Shown: positions 31,151 through 38,418 of the stretch, in pieces
Layout: every line of letters starts with the position of its first letter
How positions within the stretch are numbered: position 1 is the first letter of the stretch
DNA from: Salinibacterium sp. SWN248
GTDB lineage: Bacteria > Actinomycetota > Actinomycetes > Actinomycetales > Microbacteriaceae
DNA: 64,000 nt
Reading direction: 5' to 3'
Assembly: GCF_015864575.1 (NCBI RefSeq)
Contig: NZ_JADYWW010000001.1
Location: forward strand, 1,263,719 to 1,327,718
Program-made: the position numbers and the translations under genes
Notes under the pieces: generated by a model
Told to the model about the DNA's origin: nothing
Databases searched by the model: none
The model's input: only the letters and a program-made list of their open reading frames with translations

Positions 31151-31798
31151 TTGTTTATTAAATCTCATGCGGCAATCCTCCGCGCTCAGGCCAAGAGTCA
31201 GAGCGCGGATCTTTCTGGGCGGCACAAACGCGTCTCGTGGAGCTTGCCTGCTTTCGCTTCGACAGTGAGCTTGGGATTCATCGCTACGTTGATGATGGCT
31301 GCTCCGACGCCGGCGAGCACTGTTTCGGCCGCTCCGGCGCCGTTGAGTACCGTACAGCGTGCAGAAGTGCAATCGATCACTGTTGCCGAAGGCTTCGTTA
31401 ATGAAGTCGAGCGCGACAAACTCACGATCAAGGAGCTCGTCGTTGAGCCTGTCGTGGTCGCCGCTCCCGCAGCGCCGGCAGTGGGAACGCCTGACCCAGG
31501 AACCGCGCAGGCTGTTGCCTTGTCCATGCTGACAGCCCGTGGTTTGGGCTCGGGGGAGTACAACTGCCTCGTCAGCCTGTGGAACCGCGAATCTGGGTGG
31601 AACGTGTATGCCCAGAACGCGTCGAGTGGTGCCTACGGCATCCCGCAGGCGCTTCCCGGCAGCAAGATGGCTACTGCGGGTGCGGACTGGGCTACTAACC
31701 CCGCAACTCAGATTGCGTGGGGCTTGAGCTACATCGAGGGCCGTTACGGAACTCCGTGTGGCGCGTGGGCTTATTCAGAGTCCAACGGCTGGTACTAG
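31151..31798 (+). CDS. Secreted transglycosylase-like (lysozyme-fold) protein
   Basis: A 215-residue exported protein. A signal-like segment lies at about residues 35-55 (LPAFASTVSLGFIATLMMAA) after a long basic N-terminus. The C-terminal 75 residues are the transglycosylase SLT-like domain common in actinobacteria: NCLVSLWNRESGWNVYAQNA, which holds the catalytic Glu, then SGAYGIPQALPGSKM, then IAWGLSYIEGRYGTPCGAWA. It should cleave peptidoglycan. A TTG at 31151 is taken as the start, with no clear ribosome binding site. The start is therefore the least certain point. Confidence 0.82.
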   Translation: MFIKSHAAILRAQAKSQSADLSGRHKRVSWSLPAFASTVSLGFIATLMMAAPTPASTVSAAPAPLSTVQRAEVQSITVAEGFVNEVERDKLTIKELVVEPVVVAAPAAPAVGTPDPGTAQAVALSMLTARGLGSGEYNCLVSLWNRESGWNVYAQNASSGAYGIPQALPGSKMATAGADWATNPATQIAWGLSYIEGRYGTPCGAWAYSESNGWY

Positions 31799-32914: not shown

Positions 32915-33976
32915 CTAGAGGTCTGCTTGGCGCGGCACGACAACTTGCTGAACAATCAGCAGGATCGCTGCGGCAACGGGGATTGCGATAAGCGCCCCCA
33001 GAATACCCAGTAACGTTCCCCCCGCGAGGGCGGCAATCACCACGAGCGCGCCGGGAATCTTGACGGCTTTGTTCATGATGCGCGGGTTGAGCAGGTAAGC
33101 CTCAACTTGCATGTAGATCAGGTAGTAGATTCCTACGGCGATCACGCTGGGTGGGCCGTTGAACAGCAGCACGAGCAGGGTGATCACGATGGAGCCGCTC
33201 AGTGTTCCGACGAGTGGGATGAGTGACCCGACGAAGGCGATGAAGGCCAGCAGTGCTGAGTACTTCACGGGGAGCCCGAATGCCGGGAAGATCAGAGTCA
33301 GGACCAGGAACGACAGCACACCGTTGACGAGCGCGAGTGAGCCCTGACCGATGACGTAGCGACCAACTGCTGCGCTGACTTGTTCGGCGAGGTCGATGAA
33401 CTTCGCGCGCTTGGTCGCAGGCACGAGTTGGTAGAGGCCACCCTTGATGTTGTTGAGCGACGATACGAAGTAAATCGTGAGGATAAGCACGATGATGGCG
33501 CCGGTAATCCCGGTGGCGATACCGATGCCGACGGCGAACACTCCGCCACCGATCGTGGTGAAGTCGAGGTCTGCGATCCAGACGTTGAAGCCGTCGAGCA
33601 GATCTTGCACGTTGAGCCACGGGAATGCTGTCTCGACGCTCTCGCGAACGGTTCCATCGAAGAAGGCTGTAACGAGTCGCGGAATGGCTTCGGACGCGTT
33701 TCTGACCTGCTCGGCGATAACGGGAACGATCGCAAAAATGAGCCCGGTGAAAACCCCAAGCACGCCAGCCAGCACGGTAAGAATCGCGGTCCATCGCGGG
33801 AACTTCTTGGTCTCGAGCCACGTGACGACAGGGTCGAGGCCGAGCGCGAGGAAGAGCGCTGCTCCCACGTACGTCAGGATCGTCGCGAGCGAAATCACCG
33901 TCTGGCCGATTCCGACCGCGACAAGAACCCCTAGACCGCCGAGTAGTCCGAGGCGGAATGGATTGAGGATCTTCAT
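32915..33976 (-). CDS. AI-2E transporter family permease
   Basis: A 353-residue membrane protein of the AI-2E transporter (UPF0118/TqsA, YdbI) family, which includes exporters of varied solutes and Na+/H+ antiporters. Eight hydrophobic segments are visible in the family pattern: ILTYVGAALFLALGLDPVVT near the N-terminus, FSSLLTIYFVSSLNNIKGG-like region (ILTIYFVSSLNNIKGGLYQL), and the C-terminal IPGALVVIAALAGGTLLGIL then GALIAIPVAAAILLIVQQVV. Function as an autoinducer transporter cannot be assumed. It lies convergent to the hydrolase gene, 10 bases apart, and upstream of nothing obviously related. Confidence 0.9.
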   Translation of the reverse strand: MKILNPFRLGLLGGLGVLVAVGIGQTVISLATILTYVGAALFLALGLDPVVTWLETKKFPRWTAILTVLAGVLGVFTGLIFAIVPVIAEQVRNASEAIPRLVTAFFDGTVRESVETAFPWLNVQDLLDGFNVWIADLDFTTIGGGVFAVGIGIATGITGAIIVLILTIYFVSSLNNIKGGLYQLVPATKRAKFIDLAEQVSAAVGRYVIGQGSLALVNGVLSFLVLTLIFPAFGLPVKYSALLAFIAFVGSLIPLVGTLSGSIVITLLVLLFNGPPSVIAVGIYYLIYMQVEAYLLNPRIMNKAVKIPGALVVIAALAGGTLLGILGALIAIPVAAAILLIVQQVVVPRQADL

Positions 33977-34047
33977 TGCATGGCTCCGTTCGGCCTAACG
34001 CAACTGTGTCGGGCTGAGCGCAATTCTAGGTGCCGTGCGGGCTGTTA

Positions 34048-36387
34048 CTAGCTAACTTCCTCGGCTTGGTTCAGAACTCCGCGAAGGTTTTCGAAGTATC
34101 CGGCAACTGTCTCGCGTTCCGCCTTGATCTTCGCGAGGCGGTCTTCGGCCTCGCTGACGAGATCGTGGGAGCGCTTCTCGGCGTCGTCGAGCATCGCCTT
34201 GGCGCGCTGTTCGGCATCCGCGACTTCGTCGGTAGCCCGACCAGAGGCGTCGGCGAGCAACGTTTTGGCTTCGGCTTGCGAGCTCTTGGTGAGCTCCTCT
34301 GCTTCGTTACGTTTAGCGTTAGCCTCACGCACAGCTTCGGCCAGTTGGGCTTGGGCTTCCTCGAGGTAGTTCTGCGTTTGAGCTGTTGCCTCTTTGTGCT
34401 GCGCCAGGAATTCTTTTTCGGCGTCATCGCGGCGTGCCGCAATTTCCTGCTCAAGTGAGATTCGGGCTGCTTCGGCCTCGCGCTCGATCGTGGTGCGGGT
34501 CTCCTCAAGCTGATGCTTGATGGTGGCCCGTGTCGACTCAACCTCGTTGGCTAGTTCTGCGCGCTGGCGTGCGATGTCGCGCTCAAGGTCGGTGGTCTGC
34601 TTCTCGACATCGTGAGCGAGCGTGGACCGTGTCTCTGACGCGTAGCTTTCGAGTTCGGTGCGCTTGCTGTCGATTTCAGCATCCAGCTCTGCGTGGCGGC
34701 GTGCCATTTCTTCTTCGAGGCCCGCCGTTGCCGAGGCGATTTCTGCTTCGAGCTCGTTGCGACGGGTGCTCGTCTCGGCGTCGAACTCGGCACGAGCGGT
34801 GGTGCTCTCCTGTTCGAAGGCGGCGCGAGCACTCGTGATTTCGGCTTCGAGACCGGCCTGCGTGGTCTCCACATCGCTTTCCAAAGCCGCCCGTGTTGTC
34901 GAGACTTCCTTGGCCAGTGCCTTCTTGGTGGAAGTAACTTCCTTGTCGAGCGCCTTCTTCTGAGCGGCGACATCGGCGGCAAGCTCTTTTCGGGTGGTCT
35001 TGACGTGAGCATCAAGCTCAGCCCGCGTCGTGGTGACCTCGTCGTCGAGGGCAGCCTTTGCGGTGGCAACCTCTGTTTCGAGTTCGGAGCGAGTGGTCGT
35101 AACCTCTTGTTCAAGTGAGGCTTGGGTCACCTTCACTTCTTGCTCGAGTGCCGTCTTGGTGCTGGAAACTTCCTGTTCGAGCGCTGCCTTGGTGCTCGTT
35201 ACCTCATGTTCAAGAGCAGCCTTCGTGGTGGACACCTCGTCTTCGAGTCCCGCACGGGTTGTGGTGACGTCGCTCTCGAGTTGCTGACGGGCTTCGCGCT
35301 CTTCGTGCTCCCACAGCTCGCGGGCCTCAGAGAGTTCGGCTTCGAGGGATGACTGCGTCGCGAGAACGGTCTTTTCAAGTTCAGTGAGCGTGTTCGCTGC
35401 TTCGGTCGCGGCGGCAGTGCGCGTGGCTTCTGCTTCCGCTTCGAGTGCAGCGTAGGCGGCATCGAGCTCAGCCTGATGCTTGGCCTTGGCCGCTTTTGTT
35501 TCGTTGGCGAGCTTGGTATGGGCCGCTTTTGTTTCGTTGGCGAGCTTGGTGTGAGCTGCCTTTGTTTCATTGGTGAGCGTTTCGCGCGCTGTGGCTGTTT
35601 CAGCCTCGAGCTCGGCGCGTGCCGTCTCGATCTCGCGAGCAAGATCAGTGCGTGCTTGTTCGATGTCGCGGTGGAGGTCTTCTCGCTGCTTGGTGTTTTC
35701 AGCCTCAAAGGTTGCACGGCCGAGCTCAGCGTCGCGAGCCAAGGACTCTGCGGCTTCGCGGGCTTCAGCCACTTCGCTTGCGGTGCTGGCACGCAGCTCC
35801 GTCATGGCGCGTTCGGTTTCGGCACGCAGCGCTGCAGATTCTCGCTTGGCTGAGGTGCGAGCATCCGCGGCCTCTGTCGCTACAGCACCGCGAATAGTGG
35901 CGGCTTCGCGCGCAGCGTCGGTAACGAGCTGAGAGGCTTCGTCTTTCGCCCGACTGATGAGAGCGTCAGCTTCGGCACGAGAGGATTTGGCGAGGGCGGC
36001 AGCTTCACTCTTCGCATCGTTGAGGATGCGTTCGGATTCAGTCGCCGTGTCGGCACGCAGCGTAGCGGTTTCTGACTGCACGGCCTTGCGCATTTTTTCG
36101 GCGTCGATGTCAGCTTGGCTGATCAGCTGAGTGGAGTGCTCTTCAGCAACGCGCAGCATGCTTTCGAGCTTGGAGCCGAGTCCGCTGTAGGTGGGGCTTC
36201 CCGATTCGTCGAGCTCAGCCTGAAGATCCTCGTTGACGGCCAGGAGTCGCTTTACCTCTTTAGTGGAGGAAGTGCGATCTGCTTTGGCGGCTACAAGCTC
36301 ACGACGAAGCTCGCCGATCAGTTTGTCGACGTCGTCCCTCTTGTAACCGCGCATCTCTGTGCCGAAATCGGTATCGTTCGCGGCCAA
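34048..36387 (-). CDS. Large hendecad-repeat coiled-coil protein with DivIVA-like N-terminus
   Basis: A 779-residue, very hydrophilic coiled-coil protein. The N-terminus MRGYKRDDVDKLIGELRREL resembles the DivIVA membrane-targeting segment. From about residue 116 to the end the sequence runs in 11-residue units almost without a break: for example EDEVSTTKAAL, EHEVTSTKAAL, EQEVSSTKTAL, each ending in Leu after Lys/Arg. Around 60 units are visible, and DNA shows the matching 33-base periodicity. Hendecads give a slightly right-handed or straight coiled coil and differ from heptads. Large Asp/Glu/Ala-rich actinobacterial coiled-coil proteins such as Scy organise polar growth; a similar role is inference. 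The start is TTG with AGGAG upstream. Confidence 0.85.
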   Translation of the reverse strand: MAANDTDFGTEMRGYKRDDVDKLIGELRRELVAAKADRTSSTKEVKRLLAVNEDLQAELDESGSPTYSGLGSKLESMLRVAEEHSTQLISQADIDAEKMRKAVQSETATLRADTATESERILNDAKSEAAALAKSSRAEADALISRAKDEASQLVTDAAREAATIRGAVATEAADARTSAKRESAALRAETERAMTELRASTASEVAEAREAAESLARDAELGRATFEAENTKQREDLHRDIEQARTDLAREIETARAELEAETATARETLTNETKAAHTKLANETKAAHTKLANETKAAKAKHQAELDAAYAALEAEAEATRTAAATEAANTLTELEKTVLATQSSLEAELSEARELWEHEEREARQQLESDVTTTRAGLEDEVSTTKAALEHEVTSTKAALEQEVSSTKTALEQEVKVTQASLEQEVTTTRSELETEVATAKAALDDEVTTTRAELDAHVKTTRKELAADVAAQKKALDKEVTSTKKALAKEVSTTRAALESDVETTQAGLEAEITSARAAFEQESTTARAEFDAETSTRRNELEAEIASATAGLEEEMARRHAELDAEIDSKRTELESYASETRSTLAHDVEKQTTDLERDIARQRAELANEVESTRATIKHQLEETRTTIEREAEAARISLEQEIAARRDDAEKEFLAQHKEATAQTQNYLEEAQAQLAEAVREANAKRNEAEELTKSSQAEAKTLLADASGRATDEVADAEQRAKAMLDDAEKRSHDLVSEAEDRLAKIKAERETVAGYFENLRGVLNQAEEVS

Positions 36388-36669
36388 GATTTCTCCTCGA
36401 TGTCAGCGGAATGAACCCTCTGAGTTTAGTGGGGTGAGGGGGCCTCCTGTCATTCTGGTCTCATCCCCAATCTGGGGCGTTCACTGATCTCGCAGAAACT
36501 TCCCAGAAGAGTAACTAGTTCGCACGAAGACGATCGGCTATTCTTGAACGTCTTTGTTGTTGCCTACCCGCGTGGATGGGGCCCTTACCTCCAGTCCGAC
36601 CGAGGTTCAGCCAGTGTGGCTAGGGCCCTCGCACGGCGAGTAATCCTGGGCAACACGAAAGGAGAGATA

Positions 36670-38418
36670 GTGAGATTCGTTCTCGCCATAGTTAGCTTCA
36701 TGCTCGCAGCCGGACTCATCGGCTACGGCATTGCACAGCAGACCATTCTTGCGACCCCAGATCAAATCTCGGTTTCCGCAGAAACCAGCGGCGCCGCGCC
36801 TCTCACCGTGGTCAGTGGTGAAGCATTCAATGAGTACTCGGGCAACCAGACGATCCGCATCGAAGGCGATCGTCGCATCGTCGCTGCCTACGGTCGCACC
36901 ACCGACGTGCTCGCGTGGGTAGGTGAGGCCAGCTACAACATGGTCACTCTCGACGCCGAAACGGGAGACCTCGCCACTGAGAGCATCAGCGGCACAGAAC
37001 AAGAGGTTCCCGACCCCTACACCTCTGACCTATGGCTCGAGAGCTACGAGGCTGAGGACGAGCTCGCTCTCACCGTGAAGATTCCGAGCGATGTGTCATT
37101 CATCGTGGCCGCTGATGGCATCGAGCCCGCACCAAACGCGGTATCGATCTCGTGGCCGCTCGACAACACCACACCCTGGGCTGGTCCGCTCATCCTCGGT
37201 GGTGCTGCCGTGTTGCTGCTCGGCCTGATCTTCTTGATGTGGGCTGTGCACCACATGCGTCGTGCTGGCGGCCCTCGTCGCAAGCCGCAAAAGATGCCTA
37301 AGGTTCCCAAAAAGGCTCGCTACAAGCCTTCTAAGCGTGGTTCCAAGACGAGCGAAAGCACCACTTTGCGCACGAGCGTTCGCTTCGCAGTGCCGACCGT
37401 TCTGGTGAGCGTTCTCGTGTTGAGCGGATGCACGACCTCGAGCACGCCGAACTCCGCAGCCGATGAGAGCGTCCCGAGTCCTACTGCGACCTCCACCTCT
37501 GCGGCAGGAACCGCGGCAACTCCCGCGGTATCCGTGCGTCAGATTGAGAAGATCGTTGCGCAGATCAGCGCGGTCTCCCAAGAGGCCGATGAAGAGCGCG
37601 ACACGGATCTCATCGAGACACGCTTCGCGGAAGCTGCGCTGGAATATCGTCTTGCGAACTACAAGATGCGCAAAGCAGACGATTCGATTGCGCTCCCGGT
37701 CGCGATTCCGGATGGCCCCGTGCAGCTGACGTTGCCGCAACAGACTGAGTCCTGGCCGCGCACGGTCTTCACGATCATCCTCGATGAGACTGATTCAACG
37801 GTCGCTCCGATTGCATTGTTCTTGGAGCAGGAAACCCCTCGCGACAATTACAAGGTCAGCTACGCCATGAACCTTGAACCCTCCGTGGTGTTCCCGGATG
37901 TCGCGGCAGCCAGCGTGGGTACCTCGCGCCTGCCCGCCGATAGCGGTCTTTTGCGTTCTTCACCCACCGAGGTTGCTCTCAACTATGCAGAGATTCTTGA
38001 GCAGGATGTCGAAAGCGACTCCTACCTCGACTTCGAAGCTGAGGGCGACAGCCTTCGTGTGAGCGTCGGTCTTGCCGTGAAGAAAAAGGAGAAGGCCGCC
38101 CTTTCCAGCACGGCCACTCTGACCTATGGTCACGAGCTTGGTTCGGCGGATCCGATCGCGATGGCGACGATCGATGCGGGCGCAATTGTTGCCGTGCATC
38201 TTTATGAGACCAAGGTCGCAGCGCCCAAGGAAGAAGGGTCTGCTGTGACCTTTAGCGGTCAGACGAAGGCTCTCTCCGGCATCTCGATTACCGAAGAGGG
38301 AATCAAATCTACCTACGGGGATCAGTTACTCTTTTATGTCCCAGCAGCGGGCAGCGATGAGAAGATCATCCTGCTTGGCTACACCCAAGGACTTGTTGCA
38401 GCATCGGAGTTGAAATGA
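36670..38418 (+). CDS. Membrane protein of unknown function with three hydrophobic segments
   Basis: A 582-residue protein I do not recognise by family. Visible layout: an N-terminal membrane helix (about residues 3-21), an extracytoplasmic domain (about 22-165), a second helix (AGPLILGGAAVLLLGLIFLM, about 168-187), a strongly basic cytoplasmic stretch rich in Arg/Lys (about 193-235), a third hydrophobic segment ending VLVLSGC (about 239-254), and then a 330-residue domain that starts in a Ser/Thr-rich linker and is presumably outside the cell. The LSGC looks like a lipobox but is internal. GTG at 36670 follows AAAGGAGAGA. Its stop overlaps the next gene by four bases (ATGA), so the two are translationally coupled. 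Confidence 0.75.
   Translation: MRFVLAIVSFMLAAGLIGYGIAQQTILATPDQISVSAETSGAAPLTVVSGEAFNEYSGNQTIRIEGDRRIVAAYGRTTDVLAWVGEASYNMVTLDAETGDLATESISGTEQEVPDPYTSDLWLESYEAEDELALTVKIPSDVSFIVAADGIEPAPNAVSISWPLDNTTPWAGPLILGGAAVLLLGLIFLMWAVHHMRRAGGPRRKPQKMPKVPKKARYKPSKRGSKTSESTTLRTSVRFAVPTVLVSVLVLSGCTTSSTPNSAADESVPSPTATSTSAAGTAATPAVSVRQIEKIVAQISAVSQEADEERDTDLIETRFAEAALEYRLANYKMRKADDSIALPVAIPDGPVQLTLPQQTESWPRTVFTIILDETDSTVAPIALFLEQETPRDNYKVSYAMNLEPSVVFPDVAAASVGTSRLPADSGLLRSSPTEVALNYAEILEQDVESDSYLDFEAEGDSLRVSVGLAVKKKEKAALSSTATLTYGHELGSADPIAMATIDAGAIVAVHLYETKVAAPKEEGSAVTFSGQTKALSGISITEEGIKSTYGDQLLFYVPAAGSDEKIILLGYTQGLVAASELK

Follow-up and report, generated by a model that had tools for sequence, protein, structure and literature searches.

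A probable FilP/Scy-type protein of the Microbacteriaceae with a hendecad rod whose length nearly always changes by whole 11-residue units

The stretch of DNA analysed here (the window) comprises 64,000 nucleotides of Salinibacterium sp. SWN248. An earlier note, made from the letters of the window, had claimed an open reading frame at positions 34048 to 36387; the frame is present there, on the minus strand and with a TTG start. The gene, the parts of its product and two neighbouring genes are listed below, with positions counted from the first letter of the window.

32915..33976, minus strand: AI-2E family transporter gene, downstream of the rod gene and on the same strand
34048..36387, minus strand: coding sequence of the rod gene, 779 residues, TTG start, single open frame
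34078..34107, minus strand: conserved C-terminal motif VAGYFENLRG, residues 761-770, used as the far anchor for rod length
34108..34425, minus strand: C-terminal part of the rod, residues 655-760, mixed heptad/hendecad periodicity
34426..35679, minus strand: second part of the hendecad rod, residues 237-654, 38 units, core L2 / V,I6 / T,A9
35144..35247, strand not applicable: DNA-level 33-bp tandem array, 3.2 copies, 73% matches
35488..35578, strand not applicable: DNA-level 33-bp tandem array, 2.8 copies, 89% matches
35746..36042, minus strand: first part of the hendecad rod, residues 116-214, alanine-rich core A3/L6/A10
36175..36201, minus strand: hinge GSPTYSGLG, residues 63-71, with a GLG that is invariant in 55 family heads and a stretch (62-66) that AlphaFold2 models as non-helical
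36205..36366, minus strand: DivIVA-like head, residues 8-61, a loop followed by a helix at 17-61 (Pfam, PDB profile, AlphaFold2)
36325..36351, minus strand: motif RGYKRDDVD, residues 13-21 (consensus RGYDxxEVD from PMC9858780)
36393..36398, minus strand: GAGGAG, putative ribosome-binding site read by eye, five bases 5' of the TTG
36544..38418, plus strand: divergent lipoprotein-like gene

The two 33-bp arrays were those detected in a search of window positions 33900-36500. The 779-residue product is largely helical, with one proline (residue 65, in the hinge), no cysteine and 20% alanine, and in its own 3.05-Mb genome it is the sole match to itself (E <= 0.001). Its nearest named relatives are in Salinibacterium sp. 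SWN167 and NG253 (97% over the 110-residue head). The neighbours scanned include genes for the AI-2E transporter, the lipoprotein-like protein, a thioredoxin-TPR protein, a hydrolase, cysteine desulfurase, MnmA and LigA, among others. The AI-2E gene is found in 66 of the 80 named loci, the divergent gene in all 80 and the thioredoxin-TPR gene in 73, some of these loci being too short to show all genes. A further frame of the window (31151-31798, plus strand), present in 69 of the 80, encodes an aggregation-promoting-factor C-terminal domain (NF052397, 5.5e-37). The divergent gene weakly matches an SCO2278-family lipoprotein and carries a lipobox-like LVLSGC in mid-frame, not at its start.

We found that the hendecad repeat proposed in the earlier note is borne out by autocorrelation of the protein and by its hydrophobic period. 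Identity at lag 11 is 0.32 for the whole protein and 0.41 for residues 216-655, and the highest identity among 300 shuffles over lags 1-60 is 0.156 and 0.18, respectively. A lag-7 signal stronger than that at lag 11, which had been named as evidence to the contrary, was not seen (0.10 for the whole protein, 0.085 for residues 216-655). The hydrophobic pattern has a Fourier power of 61.0 at 3.66 residues versus 0.4 at 3.5. The hendecad rod is real and strongly supported. The proposal that units run from residue 116 to the end holds for residues 116-654, which are regular (49 units), but not for the last 125 or so residues, which are mixed; in segments 661-704 and 727-770, power at 3.5 exceeds power at 3.667.

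Near residues 200-235 the core pattern shifts from unit positions 3, 6 and 10 (A/L/A) to positions 2, 6 and 9 (L/V,I/T,A). Among the 38 units of residues 237-654, position 2 is L in 31, position 6 is V or I in 23 and position 9 is T or A in 31; position 3 is D or E in 26, position 5 is E or D in 34, and position 10 is R or K in 28. This part of the rod is net acidic (94 D+E versus 55 K+R). Its core spacing is the 3-4-4 of hendecad coils, and one layer of the core holds a small residue, which is described as a requirement of dimeric hendecads (PMC9858780). Hendecad coils of such length had been thought uncommon, but within this family they are ordinary: rods reach 1067 residues between anchors, and the best identity lag among 139 homologues is 11 in 127, 22 in 11 and 51 in one.

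The suggestion of a DivIVA-like N-terminus was supported by profile search. All 55 family heads gave a match to Pfam DivIVA (PF05103) at E <= 0.01 (best 5.5e-13), and 54 of the 55 gave one to TIGR03544; the window protein's own scores are 23.9 bits, below the cut-off of 28, and 19.0, below the cut-off of 22, respectively. When the family profile was compared with the PDB, the best match was DivIVA 2wuj (E 7.6e-5), and GpsB and Wag31 6lfa (0.013) were also recovered. The window motif RGYKRDDVD follows the published RGYDxxEVD with two substitutions, D4 to K and E7 to D; R, G, Y and V of the motif are invariant in the 55 family heads, and RGYDKDEVD is present in many relatives. The fourth residue, in the consensus a D that caps the N-terminus of the coil, is K in the window protein, which counts against placing it in the FilP/Scy group. 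After the motif, residues 23-66 show the heptad period (power 3.2 at 3.5 versus 0.9 at 3.667), and residues 1-44 give 0.2 at 3.5 versus 3.2 at 3.667. AlphaFold2 models residues 1-150 as a monomer with a helix at 17-61, a break at 62-66 and a helix at 67-149 (mean pLDDT 85.6, pTM 0.40, residues 1-9 under 50). Foldseek returned no match in the PDB for this 150-residue monomer model, which is unsurprising for two bare helices.

With residues 1-215 as the query, 197 of 249 sampled genomes of the family match at 1e-5, representing 65 of 78 genera, and the head profile at 1e-8 matches 110 of 149 sampled genomes of the order (45 of 63 genera). Ten non-matching family genomes that were searched again with the profile (E <= 0.01) yielded four weak matches. 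In one genus of the family that lacks a clear relative, the frames concerned (472-599 residues; L383/L387 in G145, L384/L389 in G242 and L385/L388 in G281) each contain two matches to the head profile. These double matches are possibly a PolyDIV-type protein, or a slipped match to the coil.

We measured rod length as the ungapped distance from the head anchor to the C-terminal anchor. In a first set of 30 loci, 26 were measurable, and all 26 rods are exact multiples of 11 (550 to 748); one locus missed in that count (L019) later proved to be 7 modulo 11. The set was enlarged to 150 loci by adding 120 hand-picked from the listed matches, and 143 of these were measurable. Two of the remaining seven (L021, L114) are open at contig ends and five (L198, L200, L201, L203, L204) have a weak C-terminal anchor, their raw residues modulo 11 being 0, 6, 10, 0 and 6, with the anchors of L200 and L201 spurious. 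The 143 rods take 57 different lengths between 325 and 1067 residues. Modulo 11, 101 of them are 0 and 38 are 7, and the other four are 6, 6, 4 and 2. The offset-7 class consists chiefly of sequences with an FTQVFRGYD head, together with L019/L207 (the window's own genus, one genome), L123, L180, L186, L196 and L202. In the window genome and the ten closest relatives (L001-L011), the distance between anchors is exactly 748 residues throughout, at 77-100% identity, and rod length is therefore stable over shorter times.

Relatives share ancestry, and rod lengths were therefore compared in 69 non-overlapping pairs drawn from a tree of the conserved ends. Four genomes were counted twice among the 143, and the duplicates (L019, L028, L029, L030) were left out, so that 139 sequences entered this test. 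The pairs contain 40 phylogenetically independent changes in rod length, and 36 of these are multiples of 11 (P = 2e-33, binomial test against 1/11); the exceptions are 7, 24, 40 and 73. As a control, the tail that follows the C-terminal anchor in the same genes differs in 27 cases, of which 4 are multiples of 11. Rod length is thus quantised: changes within lineages nearly always comprise whole 11-residue units.

For the order's remaining families, measurement covered 77 of 85 loci and left eight out (an earlier count with a stricter head score had retained 41 of the 85). Their 38 pairs show 14 rod changes, 10 of them multiples of 11 (exceptions 2, 14, 173 and 223), against 2 of 36 for the tail. 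With both sets on one tree, 108 pairs contain 55 rod changes, of which 45 are multiples of 11 and ten are exceptions; the tail control gives 4 of 65. The offsets of the 77 loci outside Microbacteriaceae vary (4 in 46, 3 in 10, 0 in six, 10 in six, 8 in five, 6 in three and 5 in one), so there is no single order-wide constant and the rule applies to changes within lineages. Rods of one genus outside the family (L347, L348, L353-L355, L357-L361) span 762-1128 residues and fall into classes 3 and 6 modulo 11; two heptads (14) would bridge these classes. We also measured the named loci between other anchors, from GLG to VAGYFE. This was possible in 71 of the 80 (nine unmeasured; some genomes overlap the first set) and gave 29 lengths, with 69 of the 71 in one class modulo 11 and two in another. 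The spacing from RGY to GLG is 56 residues in 70 of these 71 loci.

Lengths in steps are also found in unrelated coiled-coil proteins. The arms of SMC proteins vary in steps of about 100 residues (PMC5344682), and PadC linkers differ by multiples of 7 in 54% of cases, with 38% at -4 (PMC9587094); the present family differs from both in its step of 11 and its 57 lengths in 143 sequences. Rod length is not correlated with genome size across 116 genomes (Spearman -0.008, without kinship correction and with sizes entered by hand), and among genomes of at least 2.3 Mb the coefficient is -0.19 (P = 0.047, kinship ignored). In the eight genomes under 2.3 Mb, the rods measure 325, 325, 330, 332, 381, 381, 495 and 682 residues. 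The shortest rods (325-381; L186, L196, L198, L199, L204, L205) occur mostly in genomes of 1.3-2.2 Mb, and L118 and L184, from 2.1-Mb genomes, have longer rods than this group.

Either the protein or the mutational behaviour of its gene could impose the 11-residue step. On the first reading, which we judge to be evenly poised between right and wrong, the FilP-type rod is a phase-locked ruler: selection would let its length drift over a three-fold range almost solely by whole hendecads, with an occasional step of 7, because the rotation of head relative to tail in the dimer would have to stay fixed. On the second, which we consider unlikely, the steps are purely mutational, unequal recombination or slippage in a 33-bp array shifting whole units in a protein that tolerates anything. 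Two short 33-bp arrays are indeed visible at the DNA level, of four inserts examined, one shares 94% identity with the unit on its left and resembles a recent tandem copy, and the three closest differing pairs have gaps of 99, 66 + 33, and 33 bp. However, in the window gene, where DNA-level homogenisation of the repeat was looked for and not found, identity at lag 33 is 0.535 versus 0.525 (SD 0.007) once synonymous codons are shuffled, and of 37 adjacent 33-bp units one is at least 80% identical. As the DNA hardly preserves the 33-bp repeat more closely than the protein sequence requires, selection on helical phase is favoured. Moreover, three of the four exceptions in the family (7, 40 and 73) equal 7 modulo 11, or two helical turns, a step that a 33-bp array alone would not supply and that is more readily explained by phase selection than by mutation in units of 33 bp. 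In the rod, changes other than multiples of 11 occur at 1.1e-4 per pair and residue, about 250 times more rarely than in the tail (0.028), although this contrast overstates selection because the tail is probably unconstrained.

Six pairs were aligned at the DNA level, and three alignments were clean. In the other three, more distant pairs, the gaps in the rod add up to a multiple of 33 bp, but individual gaps sometimes deviate (for example 7 and 65, or 29 and 103 bp), an irregularity that we put down to the alignment of repeats. The evidence as a whole favours selection on helical phase behind the 11-residue steps, and part of the 33-bp bias may come from recombination between diverged units.

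FilP and Scy are described as hendecad-containing members of one DivIVA-like superfamily, built from a DivIVA-like head with a heptad coil, a hinge and a hendecad rod (PMC9858780). Hendecad expansion is noted in this superfamily, lengths range from below 200 to above 1000 residues, and the central FilP cluster is described with three orders, Micrococcales among them (PMC9858780). Since both proteins are published as containing hendecads, a match to FilP explains the present finding without refuting it. Like FilP, the window protein is actinobacterial and has an RGY DivIVA-like head, a heptad coil, a hinge and a hendecad-rich rod, and its relatives, like the FilP cluster, span Micrococcales. 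Unlike FilP, with which it was compared by published description, it has a much longer and more purely hendecad rod; the whole protein has 779 residues versus about 310 for S. coelicolor FilP (a length inferred from a construct name, PMC6599971).

The earlier note had set Scy apart as mostly using a different repeat. Scy does have a 51-residue repeat (PMC3718342), and in the one Scy locus compared (L290) the period is 3.642, or 51/14; yet lag 11 is the strongest in that locus as well (0.272, versus 0.192 at lag 51), so that the repeat of the window protein (lag 11 0.359, lag 51 0.121, period 3.66), which shows no comparable 51-residue signal, differs from that of Scy in degree. Orthology with Streptomyces Scy, a polarity organiser that binds ParA, instead of with FilP would accord with the size of the window protein and with its short canonical N-terminal coil, hinge and very long non-canonical rod, all of which fit the description of Scy (PMC3718342), and six of the 55 family heads weakly match the Scy model (best 0.00096). 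We nevertheless regard it as improbable. The window protein itself has no match to the Scy model NF041483 at E <= 0.1, and at 1e-10 that model has no match in its genome and matches 2 of 119 genomes of the phylum; the period and lag-51 identity depart from those of L290, and Scy is reported for Streptomycetales only (PMC9858780). Genes for crotonyl-CoA reductase and methylmalonyl-CoA epimerase lie near Scy and some FilP clusters, and neither was found among the neighbour ORFs scanned here.

The window protein shares its head motif and domain family with DivIVA/Wag31, but on the Wag31 model NF050102 it scores 24.1 bits against a curated score of 260, and a separate DivIVA in the same genome scores 51.5 bits, above the Pfam cut-off. 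Weak matches of the full-length protein to Mu Gam, FliH, GpsB and ZorA were attributed to coiled-coil composition or to the head. Apolipoproteins and synuclein also use 11-mers. That the rod is, like them, a long amphipathic helix that binds membranes or lipids, and not a coiled coil, is most improbable, for although Pfam Apolipoprotein (A1/A4/E) gives the best full-length Pfam match, its 79 bits lie below the gathering cut-off of 90, the non-polar face of residues 237-654 is narrow (three of 11 positions, flanked by D/E at 3 and 5 and R/K at 10), the acidic excess there speaks against lipid binding, and a DivIVA-type dimerisation head precedes the rod.

We therefore think it likely that the window protein is the Microbacteriaceae member of the FilP/Scy group of DivIVA-like cytoskeletal proteins, with a FilP-like rod of adjustable length and locked phase and a function to be read from its relatives. 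By analogy with DivIVA, GpsB and FilP, the RGY head would dimerise the chain and dock it to the machinery of the pole or septum, and the hinge would be followed by a hendecad coiled-coil rod, parallel and almost straight, that ends at VAGYFENLRG. The head of such a dimeric rod should hold it close to DivIVA at the poles or the septum. At 0.15 nm per residue, about 690 residues give by arithmetic a predicted rod of about 100 nm. FilP rods measure 37-40 nm and its filaments repeat at 60 nm (PMC6599971); because the predicted rod is far longer than that of FilP, a larger filament repeat is expected. Close to the septum or the growing pole, the rods would be expected to form filaments or a mesh. 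FilP-family proteins of three genera (FilP itself and relatives from Janibacter and M. bovis) form filaments in vitro (PMC2680258), and the suggestion of a filament- or spacer-forming protein of cell shape or division is for this reason retained as the best inference. In Streptomyces, hyphae of a filP mutant are less rigid (PMC2680258). Our literature search found no localisation, interaction or filament data for any Microbacteriaceae relative. Evolution alters the length of the rod almost solely by whole hendecads, or three helical turns, with an occasional extra step of 7. Length is in this way free to vary, and the hydrophobic stripe is preserved together with the rotational phase from head to tail, presumably for a functional reason.

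The FilP/Scy-type family and its plan are known, and what is new is the length-quantised rod. The 11-residue step rule was not met in the literature searched, including the main sections of PMC9858780, and an earlier mention is possible. What DivIVA-like proteins do at the poles of streptomycetes, and how they are built, is said to 'remain elusive' (PMC11571769), and the length rule offers a clean quantitative handle on this known family. If the ruler reading is true, the filaments of each species would have an axial repeat of their own, in steps of about 1.6 nm. Dozens of natural rod lengths in fixed steps provide material with which to ask whether length sets filament spacing, and the same series could be used to ask whether helical phase matters.
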